A DNA stretch of 37,273 bases from Polyangium fumosum (GTDB lineage: Bacteria; Myxococcota_A; Polyangia; Polyangiales; Polyangiaceae). Shown one piece after another: positions 4,010 to 15,995 of this stretch. A program made the translations under genes and the position numbers. Each line of letters starts with the position of its first letter. Positions within the stretch are counted from its first letter, which is position 1. The notes under the pieces are model-generated. The model saw only the letters and a program-made list of their open reading frames with translations. It made no database searches and was not told the origin of the DNA. Where the stretch lies: contig NZ_SSMQ01000097.1 in NCBI RefSeq assembly GCF_005144585.1, forward strand, positions 1 to 37,273. The letters are read 5' to 3'.

Positions 4010-5752
4010 ATGAGCCGACAGACAGCCGACGTCCTCGTCATCGGCGGCGGCCCCGCGGGGACCACCGCCGCGGCGATGCTGAAGCGAACGAACCCCGATC
4101 GCCGGATCGTCCTCTTCGAGCGCGCCCCGTTCCCTCGCCACCACGTCGGCGAGTCGACGCTGCCCGACATGAACCCGATCCTCCGTAGGCTCGGCGTGCT
4201 CGGGACCATCGACGCCGCCGGGTTCGTGCGGAAACGGGGAATCACGTACAAATGGGCGCACGACAAACCCGTCTTCAGCGAGGTCTTCTCGACCGGCGTG
4301 CTCGATTCGCTCGTGCGCGACGGGGGCGAGGGGCTGCCCGATTATGCGTGGCAGATCGATCGCAGCCGGTACGATCAAATCCTCCTCGAACACGCGCGGT
4401 CCCAGGGCGTCGAGATCGTTCAGCCGGCGAGCGTGGATTCGGTCCTCCGGGAAGGAGACCGGGTGACGGGCCTCCGGGTTTCCCACGAGGGAACGGAGAC
4501 GACCTGGGAGAGCCGCTTCGTCGTCGACGCGTCGGGACAAGCGCGCGTCCTTTCGCGGTGGCTCGGTTTGTCGAAAGACGTGCACGCGCTCGGGGACCTC
4601 GCCATTTATCGTTATTACGAGGGGTTTCGCTGGCGCGAGGACCTCATCGGCGCGGAGGATCGATCCAAGATCTTTTTCAGCGCGACGCCCGCGGGCTGGA
4701 TGTGGTTCATCCCGCTCTCGTCGCGCCTCGTGAGCGTCGGGCTCGTCACGCGAAGGCCGTTTCTGCAATCGCACGAGCCGCCTGCGCTCTTCGATCGGGA
4801 GCTCGCGACCGTGCCCGAGATGCAGGATATGCTGGCCGAGGCGGCGCAGACGAGCGCGCCGGGCGAGGAGGGGCCGCCGCGCACGCACACGGTCGCGGAT
4901 TGGTCCTACAGCCACGCGAATCCGGCCGGGCCCGGGTGGTATCTCGCGGGGGACGCGGCGGCGTTCGTCGATCCGATCCTCTCGTCGGGGATCCTGCTCG
5001 CGCACCATTCGGGGCTCTCGGTGTCGAATGCCATCAACACGGAGTGGCATCACCCCGATATCTCCGTCGAGGAGCTCCACGCGGGGTACGCCACGTTTTA
5101 CCGTGACCTCTATGGCGGGTTTCTCGCGATGGCGCGCTGGTGGTACCACCGCCGCGGCGTCGCCGGGATCGACGAGTGGCTGCGCACGGCCGCGGATCTC
5201 GGGAGCTCGGCGCGGGGCGCGCGCGAGATCAACCGGGACGACGTCTCGGCCTTCATGACGTTCGCCGCGGGGTTTCTCACGGATTTTCGTTTCGTGCACC
5301 TCGGGTGCGCGTTCGGGGATCGCGGGCTCGCGGTTTCCCTCGACGGGCTGGAGAATCGAGCGGCCGCGGGGGATCCGCTCCGTCGAGAGCTGCTCGATCG
5401 TTCGCTGCGTCCACGGTCGCGCGTGGAGCGCGCCGAGGTGGGCGCGTACGTGGCGACGGATGTCGATTCCGATCGCTTCTGGCGGCTCCCGGAGCTGCGG
5501 CTCTTCGGCGCGTTCGGCGAGCGGGTCTATCGACCGCCGATCCCGCTCGAAGGGCGCGAGGAGCGCGGGATTCGGCGGACGCTCCAGATCGTCGAGCGGA
5601 CGCTCGCCTCGTGTAGCGGCGAGCGCACCGTGGACGACGTCGTGCGTCGCGTGCGTGACAGCTTCGATCGAAAGGAGGCCGAGGCGGTCCAGCAGCTCGC
5701 GAATCTCGTCCTGAGCGACCTCCGCCTCCTCGACGCCGTGACGCTGGCCTGA
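4010..5752 (+). CDS. Flavin-dependent halogenase family protein (tryptophan-halogenase-like)
   Basis: 580 residues. The N-terminal FAD-binding motif GGGPAG is at residues 12-17. GES (47-49), Lys75 in FVRKRG, the halogenase signature GWMWFIP (229-235) and GDAAAFVDP (314-322) follow in the order seen in PF04820 halogenases. Lys75 sits where the PrnA-type catalytic lysine is expected. Such enzymes use FADH2 and O2 to make HOCl, which the lysine passes to an aromatic or other electron-rich substrate. A flavin reductase partner is normally needed and is not in the window. The region after about residue 450 is a helical extension of uncertain function. An ATG 12 codons upstream (3974) is rejected because it falls in the promoter. 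Some members of the family are non-halogenating monooxygenases, so the activity is inferred. No NRPS or PKS gene lies nearby. Confidence 0.85.
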   Translation: MSRQTADVLVIGGGPAGTTAAAMLKRTNPDRRIVLFERAPFPRHHVGESTLPDMNPILRRLGVLGTIDAAGFVRKRGITYKWAHDKPVFSEVFSTGVLDSLVRDGGEGLPDYAWQIDRSRYDQILLEHARSQGVEIVQPASVDSVLREGDRVTGLRVSHEGTETTWESRFVVDASGQARVLSRWLGLSKDVHALGDLAIYRYYEGFRWREDLIGAEDRSKIFFSATPAGWMWFIPLSSRLVSVGLVTRRPFLQSHEPPALFDRELATVPEMQDMLAEAAQTSAPGEEGPPRTHTVADWSYSHANPAGPGWYLAGDAAAFVDPILSSGILLAHHSGLSVSNAINTEWHHPDISVEELHAGYATFYRDLYGGFLAMARWWYHRRGVAGIDEWLRTAADLGSSARGAREINRDDVSAFMTFAAGFLTDFRFVHLGCAFGDRGLAVSLDGLENRAAAGDPLRRELLDRSLRPRSRVERAEVGAYVATDVDSDRFWRLPELRLFGAFGERVYRPPIPLEGREERGIRRTLQIVERTLASCSGERTVDDVVRRVRDSFDRKEAEAVQQLANLVLSDLRLLDAVTLA

Positions 5753-5828: not shown

Positions 5829-5834
5829 TAGGAT
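5829..5834 (+). promoter_or_regulatory. -10-like hexamer TAGGAT, predicted leaderless start at 5842
   Basis: TAGGAT ends 7 nt before the ATG at 5842. The first in-frame ATG (5833) overlaps the hexamer itself, so it would not be in the transcript. A weak -35 (CTTCCG) lies 18 nt upstream. Confidence 0.45.
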
Positions 5835-5841
5835 GCGCGCC

Positions 5842-8800
5842 ATGCGAATGCGCCCCTCGACGGGTTTGCTCCCCACGCTCATCGTGTTCCTCGCGCTCGT
5901 GGCCCTCGGCTGCGGCGATGACGGCGGCATACCACCGAGCCCCGTCGACGCCGGGCGGGACGTCACCGAGACGCCCGATGCCTCGGAGCCCGATGCCTCG
6001 GAGCCGGACGCGGGGTGTCCGCCGGGATCGTATCCCGACGGCGGCGTGTGTGTGCTCGAAGGGAGCTGTCAGAACAATCCCTGTGGCGAACACGGGACGT
6101 GCGACGATTCGAGCGGCTCGGCCCTCTGCACGTGCGCGGAGGGCTGGGCGGGCGCGACGTGCGCGTCGTGTGATGCCGCGGGCGGTTATCACGACGATGG
6201 GAGCGGCGGCTGCACGACGGACCCGTGCGTGCCGGATCCATGCATATCGCCCGATCGCGTCTGTGATGGGAGCTCGGGCAGCGCGCAGTGTGTGTGCAAG
6301 CCGGGCACGCACGACGAGCGCGGCGTCTGCGTCGAGGACAAGACGTGCCTGCCGACGACGTGCAGCGGTCACGGGAGCTGCAATGACGAGGGCGGCGAGG
6401 CCGTGTGCATGTGCGACGTCGGATGGAGCGGGAGCGCATGCGACGCGTGTGACGACGCAGGGGGCTATCACAGCGATGGAAACGGCGGCTGCACGACGGA
6501 CCCGTGTCTGCCGAATCCCTGCGTGGCCCCGCACGCGAGCGTGTGCACGGTCGAAGGAGGATCGCCGGTCTGCGGCTGCGATCCCGGGTATCACGACCAG
6601 AACGGCGCTTGCGTGATCGACGAGGTTTGCACGCCGTCGACGTGCTCGGGCCACGGAGCGTGCGTGGTCGAAGGCGGCCACGTGGTGTGCACGTGTGACG
6701 CCGGTTTTGCCGGGGATGCGTGTGATACGTGCGACGCGGCGGGCGGGTATCACAGCGATGGAAACGGCGGCTGCACGACGGACCCGTGTTTGCCGAATCC
6801 CTGCGACATGCCGAACAAGACGGTGTGCGCGGGAGAAGGCGCTTCGTTCGTGTGCACGTGTGAGCCGGGGTATCACGACGACGGGAACGGGGGCTGCACG
6901 GACGATCCCTGCACGCCGAACGTCTGCCTCGTGATGAACCAGGCCTGCCAGGTCGTGGGCGGGATGGCGCAGTGCTACACGCCCATGTGCGACGATCAGA
7001 ATCCGTGCACGGTCGACGCGGTCGTGGGCGGGAGCTGCCAGCATACGCCGCTCGCCAACGGCACGGCGTGCCAGACGTCGCTCTGCATCGTGGATCAGGC
7101 CTGCCAGGCGGGCGTCTGCGCCGGCGGCAGTCCGCGGGTGTGTGATGACGGCAATGCGTGCACGGACGACTCGTGTGATCTCGCGGTGGGGTGCGTCGCG
7201 ACGAACGACAACACGAACGTGCCGGACGACGGAGTCGCGTGCACGATCGACAAATGCGCGGGCGGGCTCGCGTCGCATACGACGAGCAACGCGGCTTGTG
7301 ACGACGGGTCGTGGTGCACGGGCGCGGAGGTCTGCGCGCCGCTCCAGGCGGGCGCGGATGCGGAGGGGTGCGTGCACGTGAACGTGCCGCAAAAGCCCGT
7401 GAGCATCAGCCCGTGCGTGAGTTATGGCGCGTGTGACGAGGCGACGAAGTCGTTCCCGCCGGTGTTCGCGTCGCCGGGGAGCACCTGCAACGACGGCATC
7501 CCGTGCACGAGCGGGGACGTCTGCGACGCGCAGGGCGCTTGCAAGGGGACGGCCTCGATCGGGTGCGACGGCGGGGCTTGCGCGACCACGCACCCCGGCA
7601 CGGGGGACGTGAACATCCCGGTCGGCGTGGTGAGCGGGACGATCACGCTCGGAGGCGCGCCGCTGCCGGCGACGAACAACGACTACGACGGCGCGGACAT
7701 CTACCTCGTGGCGAAGGACACGAAGGCTGCGCATTACCTCGGCGGCTACAGCTACCAGTACCAGTCGGTGGGCGTGTATTCGCTGATCCCGAACACGTAC
7801 GGCGGCAAGGTGGTCGCGGGCGTGTACGACGTGCTCTACCGGCGGGGCTGGGGGTCGAGCGGGAATACGGTGTCGCGTACGCTTTCGACGGCCACGCACG
7901 TGAATGGCTACCGGATTCTGGCGAAGGACGTCGTCATCGGCGCGGGGGAAAGCAAGCTCGACGTGAACATCCCGGTGGCGAGCGTGAGCGGGACGATCAC
8001 GCTCGGGGGCGCGGCGCTGCCGGCGACGAACACGGATTACGACGGCGCGGACATCTACCTCGTGGCGAAGGACACGGGAGCCGCGCATTACCTCGGCGGC
8101 TACAGCTACCAGTACCAGTCGGCGGGCGTGTATTCGTTGATCCCGAACATGTACGGCGGCAAGGTGGTCGCGGGCGTGTACGACGTGCTGTACCGGCGGG
8201 GTTGGGGGTCGAGCGGGAATACGGTGTCGCGTACGCTTCCGGCGGCCACGCACGTGAATGGGTATCGGATCCTGGCGACGGACGTGACGCTGTCGGCAGG
8301 GGCGAACACGCTGGACGTGAACATCCCGGTGGCGAGCGTGAGCGGGACGATCACGCTCGCGGGCGCGGCGCTGCCGGCGACGAACACGGATTACGACGGC
8401 GCGGACATCTACCTCGTGGCGAAGGACACGAAGGCTGCGCATTACCTCGGCGGCTACAGCTACCAGTACCAGTCGGCGGGCGTGTATTCGTTGATCCCGA
8501 ACACCTATGGCGGCAAGGTGCCTGCGGGCACGTATGACGTGCTCTATCGTCGTGGCTGGGGGTCGAGCGGGAACACGGTGTCGCGTACGCTTCCGGCGGC
8601 CACGCACGTGAATGGGTATCGGATCCTGGCGACGGACGTGACGCTGTCGGCAGGGGCGAATACGCTGGACGTGAACATCCCGGTGGCGAGCGTGAGCGGG
8701 ACGATCACGCTCGGGGGCGCGGCGCTGCCGGCGACGAACACGGATTACGACGGCGCGGACATCTACCTCGTGGCGAAGGACACGAAGGCAGCGCATTACC

Positions 8801-9714
8801 TCGGCGGCTACAGCTATCAGTACCAGTCGGCGGGCGTGTATTCGCTGATCCCGAACACGTATGGCGGCAAGGTGCCTGCGGGGACGTACGACGTGCTCTA
8901 TCGGCGGGGCTGGGGGTCGAGCGGGAATACGGTGTCGCGCACGCTCGTGACGGCCACGCACGTCAATGGGTATCGGATCCTGGCGACGGACGTGACGCTG
9001 TCGGCAGGGGCGAATACGCTGGACGTGAACATCCCGGTGGCGAGCGTGAGCGGGACGATCACGCTCGCGGGCGCGGCGCTGCCGGCGACGAACACGGATT
9101 ACGACGGCGCGGACATCTACCTCGTGGCGAAGGACACGAAGGCAGCGCATTACCTCGGCGGCTACAGCTATCAGTACCAGTCGGCGGGCGTGTATTCGTT
9201 GATCCCGAACACGTACGGCGGCAAGGTGCCTGCGGGCACGTACGACGTGCTCTATCGTCGTGGCTGGGGGTCGAGCGGGAACACGGTGTCGCGTACGCTT
9301 CCGGCGGCCACGCACGTGAATGGCTACCGGATTCTGGCGATGAACGTCACGCTCGCGGCGGGCGCGAATACGCTGCACGTGGACATCCCCGTGTCGAACG
9401 TGAGCGGGACGATCACGCTCGGGGGCGTGGCGCTGCCGGCGACGAACACGGATTATGACGGCGCGGACATCTACCTCGTGGCGAAAGACACGCAAGCCGC
9501 GCATTACATCGGCGGCTACAGCTACCAGTACCAGTCGGCGGGCGTGTATTCGCTGATCCCGAACACCTACGGCGGCAAGGTGCCTTCGGGGACGTACGAC
9601 GTGCTCTATCGGCGGGGCTGGGGGTCGAGCGGGAATACGGTGTCGCGCACGCTCGTGACGGCCACGCACGTCAATGGGTACCGGCTTCTGGATCGATGCA
9701 TGACGACGCCTTGA
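5842..9714 (+). CDS. Giant EGF-repeat lipoprotein with six 118-residue tandem repeats
   Basis: 1290 residues if started at 5842 (alternatives 5833 and 5848). A signal peptide ends in VALGCGDD, a lipobox-like site, so it is probably an exported lipoprotein. Residues about 20-60 are an Asp/Glu/Pro linker. Residues about 76-385 hold about seven Cys-rich EGF-like modules alternating between two types (SGHGxC...GGYHSDGNGGC and PNPC...PGYHD). Next comes a Cys-rich region of 'CDDxNxCTxD' type. From residue 589 six nearly identical 118-residue repeats follow (SGTITLGG, YDGADIYLVAKDT, GGYSYQYQS, GTYDVLYRRGWGSSGN), probably beta-sandwich units like carboxypeptidase-regulatory domains. The last repeat is cut short and ends LDRCMTTP. 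An adhesive or surface role is inferred. A strong hairpin follows the stop. Confidence 0.85.
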   Translation: MRMRPSTGLLPTLIVFLALVALGCGDDGGIPPSPVDAGRDVTETPDASEPDASEPDAGCPPGSYPDGGVCVLEGSCQNNPCGEHGTCDDSSGSALCTCAEGWAGATCASCDAAGGYHDDGSGGCTTDPCVPDPCISPDRVCDGSSGSAQCVCKPGTHDERGVCVEDKTCLPTTCSGHGSCNDEGGEAVCMCDVGWSGSACDACDDAGGYHSDGNGGCTTDPCLPNPCVAPHASVCTVEGGSPVCGCDPGYHDQNGACVIDEVCTPSTCSGHGACVVEGGHVVCTCDAGFAGDACDTCDAAGGYHSDGNGGCTTDPCLPNPCDMPNKTVCAGEGASFVCTCEPGYHDDGNGGCTDDPCTPNVCLVMNQACQVVGGMAQCYTPMCDDQNPCTVDAVVGGSCQHTPLANGTACQTSLCIVDQACQAGVCAGGSPRVCDDGNACTDDSCDLAVGCVATNDNTNVPDDGVACTIDKCAGGLASHTTSNAACDDGSWCTGAEVCAPLQAGADAEGCVHVNVPQKPVSISPCVSYGACDEATKSFPPVFASPGSTCNDGIPCTSGDVCDAQGACKGTASIGCDGGACATTHPGTGDVNIPVGVVSGTITLGGAPLPATNNDYDGADIYLVAKDTKAAHYLGGYSYQYQSVGVYSLIPNTYGGKVVAGVYDVLYRRGWGSSGNTVSRTLSTATHVNGYRILAKDVVIGAGESKLDVNIPVASVSGTITLGGAALPATNTDYDGADIYLVAKDTGAAHYLGGYSYQYQSAGVYSLIPNMYGGKVVAGVYDVLYRRGWGSSGNTVSRTLPAATHVNGYRILATDVTLSAGANTLDVNIPVASVSGTITLAGAALPATNTDYDGADIYLVAKDTKAAHYLGGYSYQYQSAGVYSLIPNTYGGKVPAGTYDVLYRRGWGSSGNTVSRTLPAATHVNGYRILATDVTLSAGANTLDVNIPVASVSGTITLGGAALPATNTDYDGADIYLVAKDTKAAHYLGGYSYQYQSAGVYSLIPNTYGGKVPAGTYDVLYRRGWGSSGNTVSRTLVTATHVNGYRILATDVTLSAGANTLDVNIPVASVSGTITLAGAALPATNTDYDGADIYLVAKDTKAAHYLGGYSYQYQSAGVYSLIPNTYGGKVPAGTYDVLYRRGWGSSGNTVSRTLPAATHVNGYRILAMNVTLAAGANTLHVDIPVSNVSGTITLGGVALPATNTDYDGADIYLVAKDTQAAHYIGGYSYQYQSAGVYSLIPNTYGGKVPSGTYDVLYRRGWGSSGNTVSRTLVTATHVNGYRLLDRCMTTP
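7606..9714 (+). repeat. Six in-frame 354-bp tandem repeats
   Basis: Units start at 7606, 7960, 8314, 8668, 9022 and 9376, exactly 354 bp apart, so the reading frame is kept. The copies differ at only a few positions, also at silent sites, which points to recent duplication or gene conversion. Small differences are shared in patterns (VVAG versus PAG; TLPAA versus TLVTA; LGG versus LAG). Units 4 and 6 share TLVTA, and units 1 and 2 share VVAG. The sixth unit is about 15 bp short of full length. Confidence 0.95.
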
Positions 9715-9725
9715 AGGAGCAACGA

Positions 9726-9753
9726 ACCCCGGGGGCGTAGAAGCCCCCGGGGT
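9726..9753. terminator. Bidirectional terminator hairpin between convergent genes
   Basis: A perfect 11-bp stem (ACCCCGGGGGC / GCCCCCGGGGT) with a 6-nt loop lies 11 nt after the EGF-lipoprotein stop and 6 nt from the stop of the minus-strand radical SAM gene. There is no T-tract on either side, so termination would rely on the very stable stem or on Rho. Confidence 0.7.
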
Positions 9754-9759
9754 CGAGCG

Positions 9760-12700
9760 TCACCCCACCCGATCCCGGAGCGGCACCGAAGCCACGCGCT
9801 TCGGCTCGGCGGCCCGATCGAAGGGCGCGCCCGCGGCCTCCAGCGCCGTGATCGCCTCCGCCGCGAGCCGCATCGCACGAACGCCATCCTCCGCCGATAC
9901 CTTCGGCCGATCGCCCCGGACGACGCTCTCCCGGAACGCGACGAGCAGGCGCGCGAGGTCGCCTCCACGCGGCGGCGTGCGGGTCCGTTTGCCTCCGGCG
10001 TCGCTCACCTCCACGAGGTCACGTCCTTCCGAGCGTATCCAGGACAAACGCCTTCCATCGGCGAGGCGCGCGCGCACTTCGAGGGCGTCCGCGGCCTCGG
10101 CGAGCAAGAGCTCGATCGTGACGTCCGGCTGCGAGGGACCGGCGCCTCGCGCGCGCAAGGTCACGCGCTCGGGCCGACCGCCGCCCTTGGCCGTGGCCTT
10201 TCGGATGCGGAGGTCCTCGCCTGCCACGGCGTGTGCGACGTCGCCGAGGTGGATCAAGAGTTCGTAGAGCGCCGTGCGCGACCACGCGTGCAAGCTCGCG
10301 GGCGAGGTGGCCGTGGCCCGGTGAACGACCTCGATTTCGAGAGGACGATCGGGCCCTTTTTGATCCGCGAGCACCGTGAGGATCTCTTCGAGCCCGCCCG
10401 CCGTGCGGAGCTGCTGCGCCACCGTGATGCGCTCGTTTGCCTCGGCGGCGAGCGCTTCGGCCTCGGCGAGGTTCGCGCCGAGCGGTTTTTCCACGAGGCA
10501 GGGGAGCCCGCGCGAAAGCGCGTCGCGCGTGATGTCCGCGTGCTGCCGCGTGCTCGTGGCGACGATCACCGCGTCGATCGGGGTCCGCTCGCAGATTTCG
10601 GCGAGCGTGCGCGCGCGGGGCACGTCGGCCGCGATCTCCGGCAGATCCTTGTCCGGCGCGTGCGGGGAGGTGATGCCGGCGAGGACGAACCCGCCCGCTT
10701 GTTCCAGCGCCGCCGCGAAGGCGAGGCCCCGCCGGCCCGTGCCGACGATCGCGACACGGACGGCGCGCGGCGCGGGGGAGGTTTGGGCCACGGGCAGGTG
10801 GATACGCTCGCGCGGCGCTTCCGGGAGCGGGATGTCGTCGCTCCGCGGGATGCGGCCGTCGCCGAAGCGGAGTTCGTCGAGGCGGTCGATCCCCGGCCGA
10901 AACCGCGCGATGCGGGGCTCGGTGAGGCAACGCTCGGGCGTGATTTTCTCGCCCGGGATGGCCCGGAGCTCGCCCGTGCCGAAGACCGCCGCATAAGGCT
11001 TCCATACGCCCGTGCAGACAAGGTCGAAGCGGCAATCGGCGCAGGCCGGGCCTTTCTGCTTTTGCGGGAGGTCCTCCGTCAGCGCGCCGCTGAGCGAGAC
11101 GAGCACGTCGCTCCACGGCATCATCTCTTCGAGCTGGCACGGCGGCACGCCCTGGCGCGAGCCCACCACGACCTCGACGCCGAGCTCGTTTGCCCGCGCG
11201 ATCGCGCGCTTCAGGTAGGGCATGACGTCCGAGAAGCGGGGCACGTGGTCGGCGAGGCGCTCGAGGGCCTTGTATTGCGGCGTGACGTACGCGAAGGAGA
11301 TGCCGATCCGCGCGCCGAACGCGGCGTGCATCCACTCGACGAAGCGCACGAGGTGCCGATAGTTCTGCGCGGAGACGACGTGGTTCACGTCGAGCCGGAG
11401 CGCCTCGTGGCGCGCGAAGAGGTGGAGCGCCCGCACCGTCCGGGCGTGGTCACCCATCTTTCGGGTTTGCAGCCGCGCGAGCGCCTCGTCATGCGCGTGC
11501 AGCGAGACGAAGACGTTCGTGAGGCCCGCCCGGACGAGGGCGTCGACCTTCTCCGGTTTGTCGAGGAGCACCGCATTCGTGACGAGCTCGATGCTGCGGA
11601 CGCCGGTCCGCTTGGCCACGGACACGTAATCGACGAGGTGGCGCGAGAGCGTGGGTTCGCCGCCGCTGAACGAGATTTGCTCGACCCCCGTCCGGCCGAG
11701 GCGCGCGATCCGCCGCATCATCCGGCCCGGATCCTCCTCCACGTTGTGGGAGGTCTCGTTCGCGCTGCAGAACCAACAATCCTGGTTGCAATGGACCGTC
11801 GGGCGGAGGACCGTGAAAAACGCCGCGCGCGCCGCGCTCTTGCGGGTCTCGTCCCAGCGCTCGCGCGGGCGTTGCTGCGGGGCGCGCGGCAAGGGGGACA
11901 AGCCCGCGGCGCCGTGCGTGGAGAGGTAGAGCGTGGTCGTGCCCGGGCAGGCGCGCGAGGCGCCGCAGGCGTCGCAGGCCGGCGCGAGGGAGGAGGTGGC
12001 GTGGCGCGGCATGGGACGGCCGCCGCGATCGGCGAGCAAACGCTCGGGGACGTCGATGCCGCCGTCCGGGGTCTTGGCGGCGACGGCGCAGAGCGGGATC
12101 CCGTCGCGCTCGGTCAACGTGATTTCGAGCCCTTTTTCTCGGGCAAACCCGATCGCCGCGAGGAGCCTGTCCCGCGTTCGATCCCAGCGCGGCGGCGCGA
12201 GCTCGCGCGGCGCGCGTCCATCCACCGGCCGGAGCGCGGACGGCGCGTAGAGGCGGACACGACGCGCGCTCGGCGCGACGCCCGCGAGGAGCGTGATCAG
12301 CCCGCGGAGGTCCTGGATCGAGGGATCGAGCACCGGGATCTCGAAGACGAGGTCGAGCCCCGTCGCCGCGATGGCGCCGAGGCCCGCGAGGCCCGCGGAG
12401 AACGCGCCTCGCACGCGGGCGATCGCGTCGTGCACGGCCGCTCGGTCGCTCGCGAGGAAAAACACGACGCCCGAGAGGCCCGCCGCGCGGAGCTCGTCGG
12501 CGCGCCCCTCGGCGGCGTAGGCCACGCCGTTCGTCCGCGCATACACCGCGCCCCAGCCCGCGTCGCGCGCGTTCTGCACGATCGCGCGCAGATCCTTCAG
12601 ACGTGAAGCTTCGCCGCGCAGCTCGAGCACGCCGCCGCCACGACGGAGCTCGCGCTGCTGCGCTCCTTCGTCCGGCGGCTTGCCTCGGCAATCACAGACG

Positions 12701-12768
12701 GGGCAGGCGAGGTTGCAGCCCTCGGCGAGCAGGAGGCTCGTGTCGGTCGTGCCGGCGCGGGGGCTCAT
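9760..12768 (-). CDS. Twin radical SAM protein fused to a Gfo/Idh/MocA oxidoreductase
   Basis: 1002 residues from the ATG at 12768; an ATG at 12780 is also possible. Module 1 has a CX3CX2C cluster (Cys18, 22, 25), but the usual GGEPT is replaced by RGEAS. It ends with GIPLC and a Cx2Cx5C triad (Cys265, 268, 274). Module 2 has CX3CX2C (Cys327, 331, 334), an intact SGGEPT, GVPPC, and Cx2Cx5C (Cys576, 579, 585). Each Cys-then-triad set could hold an auxiliary FeS cluster of twitch type. From about residue 667 follows a Gfo/Idh/MocA dehydrogenase: Rossmann motif VGTGRRG, then EKPLGANL with the conserved EKP lysine. Modules 1 and 2 align end to end with the divergent gene at 12839. The product should combine radical chemistry with NAD(P)-linked oxidation on an unknown substrate, perhaps a sugar or cyclitol (inference). 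Confidence 0.85.
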   Translation of the reverse strand: MSPRAGTTDTSLLLAEGCNLACPVCDCRGKPPDEGAQQRELRRGGGVLELRGEASRLKDLRAIVQNARDAGWGAVYARTNGVAYAAEGRADELRAAGLSGVVFFLASDRAAVHDAIARVRGAFSAGLAGLGAIAATGLDLVFEIPVLDPSIQDLRGLITLLAGVAPSARRVRLYAPSALRPVDGRAPRELAPPRWDRTRDRLLAAIGFAREKGLEITLTERDGIPLCAVAAKTPDGGIDVPERLLADRGGRPMPRHATSSLAPACDACGASRACPGTTTLYLSTHGAAGLSPLPRAPQQRPRERWDETRKSAARAAFFTVLRPTVHCNQDCWFCSANETSHNVEEDPGRMMRRIARLGRTGVEQISFSGGEPTLSRHLVDYVSVAKRTGVRSIELVTNAVLLDKPEKVDALVRAGLTNVFVSLHAHDEALARLQTRKMGDHARTVRALHLFARHEALRLDVNHVVSAQNYRHLVRFVEWMHAAFGARIGISFAYVTPQYKALERLADHVPRFSDVMPYLKRAIARANELGVEVVVGSRQGVPPCQLEEMMPWSDVLVSLSGALTEDLPQKQKGPACADCRFDLVCTGVWKPYAAVFGTGELRAIPGEKITPERCLTEPRIARFRPGIDRLDELRFGDGRIPRSDDIPLPEAPRERIHLPVAQTSPAPRAVRVAIVGTGRRGLAFAAALEQAGGFVLAGITSPHAPDKDLPEIAADVPRARTLAEICERTPIDAVIVATSTRQHADITRDALSRGLPCLVEKPLGANLAEAEALAAEANERITVAQQLRTAGGLEEILTVLADQKGPDRPLEIEVVHRATATSPASLHAWSRTALYELLIHLGDVAHAVAGEDLRIRKATAKGGGRPERVTLRARGAGPSQPDVTIELLLAEAADALEVRARLADGRRLSWIRSEGRDLVEVSDAGGKRTRTPPRGGDLARLLVAFRESVVRGDRPKVSAEDGVRAMRLAAEAITALEAAGAPFDRAAEPKRVASVPLRDRVG

Positions 12769-12825
12769 GGGAGAGCGCATTGTTCGCCGTGGGAGACGCC
12801 GCGCGCAAGAGGAACGGGCTTGGGG

Positions 12826-12831
12826 TACCAT
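12826..12831 (+). promoter_or_regulatory. -10-like hexamer TACCAT, predicted leaderless start at 12839
   Basis: TACCAT ends 7 nt before the ATG at 12839. An earlier in-frame ATG at 12830 overlaps the hexamer. The spacing matches five other genes in the window. No convincing -35 is visible. The region is only 70 nt wide and is shared with the divergent gene at 12768. Confidence 0.45.
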
Positions 12832-12838
12832 GACCACG

Positions 12839-14659
12839 ATGCGCGTCGCGCGGGTGCTCACGAACGAGACCTGCAACCAGGGTTGCGGGTTCTGCTCGGC
12901 GCGAAGGCCGGTCGAACGGCCCGATTTCGTCCGCTCCGCGGCCGTGCTCGCTCGCATCGACGAGGCGCTCGCCAAGGGCACACGCGAGGTCGTGCTGACG
13001 GGCGGCGAGCCCACGATGCGCCGGGATCTCGCGGCGCTCGTCCGCCACGCCCGCGCGCGCGGCGCCGAGCGCGTCGTGCTGGAGACGAACGCGTCGCTCG
13101 TCACGGAGAGCCTCGCGCGCGCGCTCGCCGACGCGGGTCTCTCGGTCGCGCGCGTGCACGTGCCGGCGTTTGGCCCCGAGGCGGACGGGATCACGCGCGA
13201 CGAGGGCGGGTTCTCCGCCGCGCTCACGGGCGCGCGTGCCCTCGCCGCCGCGGGGATCCCGCTGGAGATCACGACGCCGGTCGTTCGGAACAACCTCGAT
13301 CTCGTCGCCGCGATCCCGGGCGGCGTGCGCGCGGCGAACCTCCCGGCCTCGCGCCTCCTCGCGTCCATCCCCGTGGAGGCGCCCGATCCTGCGACGCTCG
13401 CGCCTCTCGAAGGCGCCGCGCGTGCGCTCGAACGGCTCGATCAGGCCGCGCGGGAGGCCGGCATCCCGCTCTCGCTCGACCCCGGCGCGGCCATCCCTCC
13501 GTGCTCGTTCGAGCGGCCCGCGCGCCTCGCGCACCTCTACGCGCTGAACCCCGGCGGCGTGAATCGCCCGGGCCACGAGCGCGTGCCCGCGTGCGGAGCG
13601 TGTGTCGTTTCGGATCGTTGTCCCGGCGTGCCGCGCGCGCTCCTCGCGCGGGAGACCACGTCCGCCTTCCGGCCTCTCACGGAGGACCGGGTTCGCCGCA
13701 AGCTCACGGTGATCTCGTCGGTGCGCGAGCAGATCGATCGCGAGCTCGTGACCCGCGACGTCCACCGCGCGCCCGACGGCCGGCTCGTGCCTTCGCACAT
13801 CGTGCGCATCCAGTTTCAGTGCAACCAGGCCTGCGATTTTTGCTTCGTCTCCACGCACCTGCCGGCGCCCGAGGACGAGGCCGTGCGCCGCGCGATCCTC
13901 GAGATCGCGCACGCCGGTGGTGTGCTGCAAGTCTCGGGCGGCGAGCCGACCTTGAACGGGCGTCTCCACGCGTACGTCGCGCTCGCGAAACGGGAAGGGG
14001 CGATGGCGGTGGAGCTGCAGACGAACGCGGTGCGCCTCGGGGAGCCGGGCCGCGCGCGCGAGCTCGAAGAGGCCGGGCTCGACGTGGCGTTCGTGTCGCT
14101 GCACGGGTCGCGCGCGGAGATTTCGGACATGATCACGCGGGCGCCGGGCACGTTCGAGAAGACGGCGCGGGGGCTCGACGCGCTCGCGCAGACGAAGATC
14201 CGCGTGCGGCTGAACTTCGTCTTTTGCGCGCCGAACCTGGCGGATTTCCCGGACTTCGTGCGGCTCGTCGCGGCGCGCTGGCCGGCCGCGGAGATCAACG
14301 TCTCCGTCGTCGGGGCGTTCACGGACCTCGTGCCCCGCACGGAGAGCTTGATCCCGCGGTACACGGATCTGCTGCCTGTGATGCGCGAGGGCCTCGGGAT
14401 CGCGCGCGCGGCCGGGATCCCGGTGCTCGGCTTCGAGTCGATGTGCGGGATCCCGCTCTGCCTCGCGCCCGTCGATCCACGCGGGTTCTTCGACCTCGCC
14501 GAGATCCCGAGCGGGCACGACGGCGGCGAGTTTGTCCGCGCAGAAGCGTGCGGGCGGTGTGAACTTTCGGCGCGTTGCTTCGGCCTGCGGCGCAGCTACG
14601 CCGAGCTTCATGGAACCAGCGAGGCGCGGGCGATCGTGCGGGGGGCCGAAATCGGCTGA
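12839..14659 (+). CDS. Twin radical SAM protein with two auxiliary-cluster motifs
   Basis: 606 residues from the ATG at 12839 (609 if started at 12830). Module 1 has CX3CX2C at Cys12, 16, 19, then TGGEPT, IPPC, and a Cx2Cx5C triad (Cys252, 255, 261). Module 2 has CX3CX2C at Cys328, 332, 335, SGGEPT, a CGIPLC motif, and Cx2Cx5C (Cys571, 574, 580). Both modules look complete for binding SAM and a [4Fe-4S] cluster, and each has a four-Cys set suitable for an auxiliary cluster. It is a paralogue of the first 600 residues of the divergent protein at 9760-12768, with the second CX3CX2C at almost the same position (327 versus 328). The two genes probably share a promoter region and act together. No precursor peptide gene was seen beside them. 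The PFK-2-like gene starts 46 nt downstream. Confidence 0.85.
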   Translation: MRVARVLTNETCNQGCGFCSARRPVERPDFVRSAAVLARIDEALAKGTREVVLTGGEPTMRRDLAALVRHARARGAERVVLETNASLVTESLARALADAGLSVARVHVPAFGPEADGITRDEGGFSAALTGARALAAAGIPLEITTPVVRNNLDLVAAIPGGVRAANLPASRLLASIPVEAPDPATLAPLEGAARALERLDQAAREAGIPLSLDPGAAIPPCSFERPARLAHLYALNPGGVNRPGHERVPACGACVVSDRCPGVPRALLARETTSAFRPLTEDRVRRKLTVISSVREQIDRELVTRDVHRAPDGRLVPSHIVRIQFQCNQACDFCFVSTHLPAPEDEAVRRAILEIAHAGGVLQVSGGEPTLNGRLHAYVALAKREGAMAVELQTNAVRLGEPGRARELEEAGLDVAFVSLHGSRAEISDMITRAPGTFEKTARGLDALAQTKIRVRLNFVFCAPNLADFPDFVRLVAARWPAAEINVSVVGAFTDLVPRTESLIPRYTDLLPVMREGLGIARAAGIPVLGFESMCGIPLCLAPVDPRGFFDLAEIPSGHDGGEFVRAEACGRCELSARCFGLRRSYAELHGTSEARAIVRGAEIG

Positions 14660-14705
14660 CGCCTCCGTCCGCGGTTCGTGCTTCCCCCTTCCCTCGTAGG
14701 GCGGT

Positions 14706-15995
14706 ATGGAGCGTGCCGTGTCGGGGGTACGGAGCAAAAGGGTGCCGGGCGAGCGAGACAAGGCCACGACCGTTCTGTCCATGGTCGGCCTCCCTGCGCG
14801 GGGAAAGACGTACATCGGGCGCCGCGTGGCGCGTTACCTGAGCTGGCTCGGTCATCCGACCCGCGTGTTCAACGTGGGGAGCTACCGGCGCCGGCAGATC
14901 GGCGCGAGCCAGCCTGCCGACTTCTTCGCGCCGTCGAACAAGGAAGGCCGGCAGGTCCTGCACGACCTCGCCATGACGGCGCTCGATGACATGCTCGTCT
15001 GGCTGCGCGAGGGCGGCGAGGTCGGCATCTTCGACGCGACGAACAGCACGAAGGAGCGCAGGCGCCTCGTCGAGGAGCGGTGCCGCAAGGAGGGGCTGCC
15101 GGTCGTCTTCATCGAGTCGTTCTGCAACGACCCGGGGGTGATCGAGGCGAACGTCCGCGATACGAAGCTCAAGTCGCCGGACTACGTCGACATGGATCCG
15201 GACGCGGCGGCGCAGGACTTCCTGCGGCGCATCGCCCACTACGAGAGCATGTACGAGACGCTCGAGGATCCGAACCAGAGCTACATCAAGATCATCGACG
15301 TCGGCCGTCAGGTGATCCTGAACCGGATCCACGGCTACCTGCCCGCGCGTCTCGCGCCGTTGCTCATCGACCTGCACGTCTCGCCGCGCCCGATCTGGCT
15401 GACGCGGCACGGGCAAAGCGACTACAACCGGCACGGCCGCATCGGCGGTGATCCCGAGCTCTCCCCGGCGGGTGAGGAGTACGCGAAGCACCTGGCGGAG
15501 TTCGTTCGGAAAAACGCGCCGCGGGATCAAGAGGTGTCGGTCTGGACGAGCACGCTGCGGCGGACGATCCAGACGGCGACGAAGATCACGCGGTCACCGC
15601 GGACCTGGCGGGCGCTCGACGAGATCGACGCGGGCGTTTGCGACGGGATGACGTACGACCAGGTGCGGATCGAGATGCCGGACGTGTGGGCTGCGCGGAG
15701 CGCGGACAAATTCCGGTATCGATATCCGCGGGGCGAGTCGTACGAGGACGTGATCCAGCGGCTCGACCCGGTGATCATCCAGCTCGAACGTCAGCGCTCG
15801 CCGACCTTGGTGATCGCGCACCAGGCGGTGCTCCGGGCGATTTACGCGTACCTGATGGACCGGCCGCCGGGTGAGTGCCCGTCGATCAGCGTGCCGTTGC
15901 ACACGGTGATTCAGTTGACGCCGACGGCGTACGGCTGCGAAGAGAAACGATTCGCGCTGCCGCCGAACGTGGAGGATCAGGGGGCGGGGGGATAG
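14706..15995 (+). CDS. 6-phosphofructo-2-kinase / fructose-2,6-bisphosphatase, eukaryote-like
   Basis: 429 residues from the ATG at 14706. A GTG at 14718 lies 7 nt after TATGGA and is an alternative start. The kinase half has the P-loop GLPARGKT (residues 28-35) followed by RYLSWLGHPTRVFNVGSYRR, which as I remember it is almost word for word the animal/fungal PFKFB motif. FDATNSTKERR follows. The phosphatase half has the RHG motif LTRHGQSDYN (His235), DEIDAGVCDGMTYDQV and the second His in VIAHQAVLRAIYAYLMD (His372), again as in eukaryotic enzymes. The family makes and degrades fructose 2,6-bisphosphate, a glycolytic effector long regarded as eukaryotic. Both catalytic halves appear intact. 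Whether the host has a Fru-2,6-P2-responsive target is unknown from this window. Confidence 0.9.
   Translation: MERAVSGVRSKRVPGERDKATTVLSMVGLPARGKTYIGRRVARYLSWLGHPTRVFNVGSYRRRQIGASQPADFFAPSNKEGRQVLHDLAMTALDDMLVWLREGGEVGIFDATNSTKERRRLVEERCRKEGLPVVFIESFCNDPGVIEANVRDTKLKSPDYVDMDPDAAAQDFLRRIAHYESMYETLEDPNQSYIKIIDVGRQVILNRIHGYLPARLAPLLIDLHVSPRPIWLTRHGQSDYNRHGRIGGDPELSPAGEEYAKHLAEFVRKNAPRDQEVSVWTSTLRRTIQTATKITRSPRTWRALDEIDAGVCDGMTYDQVRIEMPDVWAARSADKFRYRYPRGESYEDVIQRLDPVIIQLERQRSPTLVIAHQAVLRAIYAYLMDRPPGECPSISVPLHTVIQLTPTAYGCEEKRFALPPNVEDQGAGG

Follow-up and report, generated by a model that had tools for sequence, protein, structure and literature searches.

On what would a pair of divergent genes act, when each encodes two radical S-adenosylmethionine (rSAM)-type modules and one encodes a fused dehydrogenase as well? 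The question is raised by a 37,273-nt stretch of Polyangium fumosum DNA (contig NZ_SSMQ01000097.1, positions 1 to 37,273; referred to here as the window), in which the start codons of the two genes, A and B, lie 61 bp apart. On balance, and with modest confidence, we lean toward reading their products as trans-acting accessory rSAM maturases of a myxobacterial His-Xaa-Ser (Hxs) system built on the peptide HxsA4, and as falling under neither the HxsC nor the HxsC4 model. Our observations are of homology, conserved motifs, co-occurrence, fused domains and, in some of the genomes, clustering; from these we infer HxsA4 as the substrate, as well as all of the chemistry of A and B. The proteins and their parts are as follows (aa, amino acids; ORF, open reading frame; pLDDT, predicted local distance difference test).

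9760..12768, minus strand: protein A, a twin rSAM-fold protein with a C-terminal Gfo/Idh/MocA domain; 1002 aa, ATG at 12768 (ORF and start, Pfam, 21 aligned homologues, the window's own included)
11899..12747, minus strand: A module 1, degenerate rSAM; residues 8-290, with CX3CX2C at 18-25, RGE instead of GGE, PLC and CX2CX5C kept
10969..11820, minus strand: A module 2, full rSAM motifs; residues 317-600, with CNQDCWFC, SGGEPT, GVPPC and CX2CX5C
9763..10767, minus strand: Gfo/Idh/MocA-type NAD(P) oxidoreductase domain of A (GFO domain); residues about 668-1002, with VGTGRRG and VEKPLG
12830..14659, plus strand: protein B, a twin rSAM/auxiliary-cluster protein; 609 aa, ATG at 12830 (ORF and start, Pfam, 63 loci in GTDB r220, structure model with mean pLDDT 91)
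12839..13669, plus strand: B module 1; residues 4-280, with CNQGCGFC, GGE, PPC and CX2CX5C
13790..14629, plus strand: B module 2; residues 321-600, with CNQACDFC, GGE, an extra invariant Cys539, PLC and CX2CX5C

Co-occurrence with HxsA4

Hxs systems are defined from sequence; the original description is said to be that of Haft and Basu. In passages of a later paper, Hxs maturation is termed putative (PMC9062424). Among titles and abstract openings found in the literature, with subscription papers mostly outside the scope, none described HxsA4 or twin rSAM maturases.

In four stretches fetched from relatives, a small ORF of 86-105 aa combines an LPxF motif with QHC (in one case QHW), an extended SHG repeat and a terminal W. 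By its NCBIfam match this is HxsA4 (61.5-102.5 bits against a cut-off of 55), and HxsB adjoins it in G036 and G026, as does HxsC4 in G036 (handles of this kind are ours). HxsA4 is precursor-like, about 100 aa long and ending in (SHG)nSW; among 25 distinct precursors from the fetched stretches, near-identical congeners included, LP(S/T)F is found in 23, QHC in 24 and a final HGSW in all 25. In G083 it lies in a much longer reading frame of 231 codons with a long SHG array (L114 3059-3754, plus strand).

The first-pass annotation of the locus had remarked that no precursor peptide was visible. That holds for the window, where a look at small ORFs with a His repeat or an LPxF motif found no His-repeat precursor, but the same genome and its relatives do carry HxsA4. 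In P. fumosum it is on contig C144 (111.8 bits, cut-off 55), adjoined by HxsB (547 bits, cut-off 370) and HxsD (58.9 bits, cut-off 50); this contig also holds an HxsC-like rSAM protein that falls below both HxsC cut-offs, and a full HxsC4 is found on C200 (594 bits, cut-off 500). Between the HxsC-like and HxsD genes is one for a protein with six stretches matching the copper-binding MopE motif (L081 11943-13979, plus strand); a metal link of the HxsA4 peptide is worth testing.

A and B occur mostly in genomes that have HxsA4. Polyangium belongs to the order Polyangiales and the phylum Myxococcota. In a draw of 144 genomes from this order, with A or B called at E ≤ 1e-60, 33 genomes have B, 19 have A, 38 have either and 14 have both, while HxsA4 is over its cut-off in 50. 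Every one of these 38 contains an HxsA4 match at E ≤ 1e-9, which in 35 is over the cut-off; the other three (G027 with 48.7 bits, G043 with 42.9 and G121 with 44.3) all have HxsC4. Among the 106 genomes lacking A and B, HxsA4 is over the cut-off in 15 and at E ≤ 1e-9 in 17. By the cut-off counts this gives a Fisher p of 3e-18 and an odds ratio of 71, against an odds ratio of 7 for a control gene, the 6-phosphofructo-2-kinase (6PF2K) domain gene next to B. Counted by genus, HxsA4 is present in 25 of 26 with A or B and in 6 of 44 without.

A draw of 282 genomes from the phylum, overlapping the first, gives a similar picture: HxsA4 is found at E ≤ 1e-9 in 24 of 26 genomes with B (22 over the cut-off) and in all six with A, among them G333, where the alignment to A leaves out the GFO domain. 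For genomes beyond the order, the corresponding fractions are 16/18 for B and 2/2 for A. Co-occurrence of this kind can suggest pathway partners that are scattered over a chromosome.

Linkage, islands and domain fusions

In part of the genomes the association is also physical. The A and B homologues of several relatives sit in rSAM-rich islands, some of which contain HxsA4, HxsB and HxsC4. In 8 of the 38 genomes (G032, G036, G038, G047, G052, G055, G070 and G083) HxsA4 is on the same contig as A or B and no more than 50 kb from it, and for HxsC4 this is so in 11 of 38. In G032, less than 1 kb separates HxsA4 (4711-5007) from position 5740, where the reading frame of A has its first ATG. Up to 10 kb to each side of the 63 B loci, HxsC4 is found in 9, in 7 of these at over 400 bits.

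Domain fusions provide a further connection. In G027, G032 and G096, A carries at its N-terminus an additional, weakly rSAM-like domain of about 450 aa. Part of a separate rSAM protein on contig C201 of the P. fumosum genome matches this domain at 47-49% identity, and in G038 a B-type twin has a relative of it (35-37%) as a fusion. More distant relatives (31-33%) are found in other island proteins. Beyond the weak rSAM match the domain has no Pfam family, and it has no PDB match. Through such exchanges of domains A, B and the C201 protein are linked to one another. The C201 protein is itself one of two further rSAM proteins of 945 and 882 aa (L083 9713-16582, minus strand), the first being the one with the shared domain and the second having a B12-binding match below the cut-off. 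Another rSAM protein, in G008 (L050 11427-14366, plus strand; 979 aa), has three Radical_SAM stretches in one chain, two genes from B.

The same islands suggest another possibility: that A and B modify some other ribosomal peptide or protein, with HxsA4 marking genomes rich in peptide-modifying rSAM islands. Many rSAM families are present in the islands, and B lies among several other rSAM genes in G008, G036 and G038; G018, which has HxsA4 and no B, has 75 first-look B candidates, as many as genomes with B. We consider this improbable, the least likely of the readings set out here.

Arguments against an HxsA4 pathway

Several observations weigh against tying A and B to HxsA4. For the control gene, 6PF2K, an association with HxsA4 is seen too (p 2e-7; by genus, 19/28 against 12/42, p 0.0015), and the Fisher values overstate independence because the genomes are related. 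Two genomes with B, G192 and G330, have no HxsA4 at E ≤ 1e-9. Linkage is far from general: 30 of the 38 genomes showed no HxsA4 at 50 kb or less from A or B, many assemblies being fragmented, and in P. fumosum A and B are on C197, with HxsA4 and HxsC4 on the two other contigs given above. In the two-contig Polyangium assembly G004, A and B lie at about 1.79 Mb of a 13.24 Mb contig, HxsC4 at about 4.07 Mb and HxsA4 at about 13.02 Mb (about 2 Mb between A/B and HxsA4 if this main contig is circular). In G136, a single contig, B is 29 kb from HxsC4 and 7.9 Mb along the contig from HxsA4 (3.5 Mb if circular). The islands, moreover, also contain B12-binding rSAM proteins, methyltransferase fusions, and PhyH, DegT and glycosyltransferase genes, a mixed content that makes other substrates possible. 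Finally, HxsA4 is far commoner than A and B (found at E ≤ 1e-9 in 96 of the 282 phylum genomes), and neither A nor B is present in 15 of the 50 genomes with HxsA4 from the order, or in 68 of the 96 from the phylum; A and B would therefore be accessories, dispensable for the system.

A small-molecule substrate is also to be considered: A and B might apply radical and then hydride chemistry to the making or modification of a sugar, a nucleotide or a cofactor, and only share genomes and islands with HxsA4. Gfo/Idh/MocA enzymes act mostly on sugars and cyclitols. In G036 the island includes DegT aminotransferase and glycosyltransferase genes, and A and B are apart from HxsA4 in Polyangium. The AlphaFold model of B (mean pLDDT as listed; predicted template modelling score, pTM, 0.69) has as its best PDB match BlsE, which acts on a sugar nucleotide and also tops the PDB profile search, a further point against HxsA4 as substrate. 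However, the PDB matches are to generic rSAM cores, with GDGT-MAS, SkfB, viperin, MoaA and SuiB among those following BlsE, and BlsE itself aligns to a single module at 23% identity; the sugar-like substrate suggested in the first-pass annotation finds little in such a resemblance. The structure model of A was too poor for use (mean pLDDT 58). Hitch-hiking also has difficulty in accounting for HxsA4 in 38 of 38 genomes with A or B, unlinked ones included. We regard a small-molecule substrate as possible, if rather unlikely, and continue here with A and B as accessory maturases of the HxsA4 system.

Two paralogous proteins with three complete modules

A and B align over residues 114-605 of A (33% identity, E 2.1e-37) and are therefore paralogues, as had been proposed for these two head-to-head genes. 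The proposed fusion of a Gfo/Idh/MocA enzyme to the minus-strand protein is likewise borne out, by a Pfam GFO_IDH_MocA match at residues 670-780 of A (E 1.5e-17). Pfam Radical_SAM matches two stretches of B (E 1.6e-41) and a single one of A (residues 323-478, E 4.5e-27), A module 1 falling under the threshold. This module nonetheless aligns by tblastn with B module 2 (B residues 330-600; 32%, E 1.4e-16), and in the window's protein it carries CX3CX2C, PLC and CX2CX5C.

Conservation was assessed in 21 A and 35 B homologues from fetched stretches, each set including the window's own protein and the A set those of four congeners, and in a second B set of 32 sequences, made up of the window's and 31 of the 63 B loci. 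A module 2 keeps CX3CX2C, GGE, PPC and CX2CX5C in 21/21. In A module 1, GGE is absent from all 21, the window's RGE standing at that place. Fifteen copies have an intact CX3CX2C here; the motif has disappeared from G047, one G070 copy, G134 and G139, and reads CX3CX3C in G083 and G086; the PLC cysteine and the three later ones are present in every copy (with CX3CX5C spacing in G001). The EKP lysine of the GFO domain is kept in 18 of 21 and missing or unaligned in the others. In the 32 B sequences the 14 motif cysteines (seven per module), both GGE motifs and the extra Cys539 are invariant. B module 2 is intact in all 35 of the first set; in B module 1, CX3CX2C is missing from two copies (one of which starts at the edge of a contig), and GAE in place of GGE, an altered PPC stretch and the absence of CX2CX5C are each seen in one copy.

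As judged by their motifs, then, three of the modules (A module 2 and B modules 1 and 2) are rSAM modules with full motifs, which look catalytic, and one, A module 1, is degenerate, since it never has GGE and its CX3CX2C is altered or lost in six copies. If an rSAM module is taken to have CX3CX2C, GGE and the core fold, these three have the motifs and the profile match, the fold being seen for B only; A module 1, without GGE, does not qualify. The CX2CX5C and the cysteine upstream of it are kept in nearly all copies of each module and are candidates for auxiliary-cluster binding, although no Pfam SPASM match to A or B was found at E ≤ 0.1. The first-pass annotation had counted four rSAM modules, and had looked to conservation of all four cysteine sets as support for a joint system. 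Twin modules with putative auxiliary-cluster cysteines are indeed present in both proteins, and the cysteines of A module 2 and, with the exceptions given, of B are conserved; A module 1 keeps the later cysteines but departs from this in its GGE and CX3CX2C.

Module history and gene order

Phylogenetic trees of the modules group the first modules of A and B firmly (SH-aLRT, the Shimodaira-Hasegawa-like approximate likelihood ratio test, 98) and the second modules weakly (59). The best trees are as expected if a twin ancestor was duplicated. Trees grouping the modules within A or within B were not rejected, however (approximately unbiased test, p-AU, 0.43 and 0.52), and grouping within B matches the best tree in fit. 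The duplicated ancestor proposed in the first-pass annotation is one candidate among these histories.

The 63 B loci of GTDB r220 genomes are mostly titled as myxobacterial or 'Deltaproteobacteria' metagenome-assembled genomes; Minicystis rosea and Paraliomyxa miuraensis are among those named, and there are one Candidatus Binatia and a few unplaced bacteria. Over the 144 order genomes A and B are associated with each other (B in 14 of 19 genomes with A; Fisher p 4.6e-7). Within the 50 HxsA4 genomes (14 with both, 4 with A only, 17 with B only, 15 with neither), the association is not significant (p 0.13). Among the 14 genomes with both, five, all Polyangium, have the genes head-to-head. G011 has them tail-to-tail (convergent), and G134 and G139 have them in tandem; in G026 and G083 the two are separated by 7 and 24 kb, and in G032, G061, G070 and G086 they fall on different contigs.

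The co-occurrence and shared order anticipated for the pair thus hold in the first respect, over all genomes, and fail in the second, and a conserved divergent arrangement can be set aside. The same is true of an obligate two-protein partnership: despite the association, 19 of the 33 genomes with B lack A and 5 of the 19 with A lack B, and homologues occurring singly had been named beforehand as evidence against a two-protein machine. The absence of A and B from G003, of the same genus, is not usable as an independent loss; since the 6PF2K gene and the one after it are missing there too, this is a block deletion or an assembly gap.

A possible sequence of reactions

If A and B do belong to the HxsA4 system, the precursor would be the peptide of about 100 aa with its LPxF leader motif, conserved QHC, long (SHG)n core and C-terminal W. 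A and B would act on it in trans, the loci being scattered (as in G004). B, with two complete rSAM/auxiliary-cluster modules, might carry out two radical steps on the peptide. In A, module 2 alone would generate a 5'-deoxyadenosyl radical, for one radical step on HxsA4 or an intermediate; module 1, with its auxiliary cysteines kept and the SAM-binding GGE gone, may have a role in substrate binding or electron transfer. The GFO domain could then perform an NAD(P)-linked hydride transfer, a reduction or an oxidation, on the group made by the radical step. As a conjectural example, a core Ser might be oxidized and then undergo hydride transfer.

Taken further, this would amount to a radical assembly line with dispersed parts: numerous rSAM proteins from separate loci would work on a (Ser-His-Gly)n peptide, among them chains in which active and pseudo-rSAM modules are combined and one that passes its radical product directly to a fused NAD(P) dehydrogenase. 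We offer this as a tentative idea that could well be wrong. If true, it would to our knowledge be the first in-cis radical-plus-hydride peptide maturase. If A and B are tied to HxsA4 at all, the myxobacterial version of Hxs grows from a few maturases to a set in which some rSAM proteins are twins, have a pseudo-module or are fused to a dehydrogenase. A product could be sought in two named strains that carry A, B and HxsA4, Polyangium sp. 6x1 and 15x6.

Neighbouring genes

The gene 46 bp downstream of B (14706-15995, plus strand) encodes a protein resembling bifunctional 6-phosphofructo-2-kinase/phosphatase (6PF2K and His_Phos_1 domains), an enzyme type best known from eukaryotes. The 6PF2K domain is found in 53 of the 144 order genomes at E ≤ 1e-30. 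It adjoins B in each of the five Polyangium genomes that have B; the other 20 genomes in which 6PF2K accompanies A or B have it on another contig or megabases away, and the two were rejected as a functional pair.

On the other side, adjoining the A/B pair, a plus-strand gene (5833-9714) encodes a protein with epidermal growth factor (EGF)-like matches, in which a unit of about 118 residues recurs several times almost unchanged. Farther upstream in the window is a tryptophan-halogenase-like flavoprotein (4010-5752, plus strand). No sigma-70-like promoter was found in 9650-14760.

Comparison with known systems

Against NCBIfam, the best 25 of the 61 models listed for A and of the 67 listed for B were compared, and none of these is over its own cut-off for either protein. 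The statement that the architecture corresponds to no named system stands within that range. The top model for both is HxsC4 (NF038332), far under its cut-off of 500 (A 120.9 bits, B 128); for HxsC (TIGR03977) A scores 87.9 and B 103.5 bits against 267.9. Since both cut-offs are failed, neither protein belongs to either family. There is a likeness, in that HxsC4 leads for both proteins and B module 2 aligns to positions 34 to 288 of the 292 of HxsC, but these are single-module models (292 and 335 positions), whereas A and B have two modules each. In the module trees HxsC4 forms its own clade with no A or B module inside it, the deeper order being unsettled.

Haloarchaeal proteins of TIGR04347, pseudo-SAM/SPASM proteins, are by their name a precedent for a degenerate rSAM protein, and in Halomarina one is annotated beside a candidate ribosomally synthesized and post-translationally modified peptide (RiPP). 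They differ in being shorter and archaeal, and A (64 bits) and B (105) are well under the cut-off of 525. BlsE, a cytosylglucuronate decarboxylase, is the best solved-structure match for the rSAM core of B; it has 327 residues, aligns to one module only and is about 23% identical. With Gfo/Idh/MocA oxidoreductases (PF01408; IolG-type), the C-terminal domain of A shares the nucleotide-binding loop and the EKP lysine (wanting in the three homologues mentioned above), but in A this domain is fused behind two rSAM-fold modules. A and B are best called proteins outside the HxsC and HxsC4 families that would work alongside that kind of system, as a variant of it.

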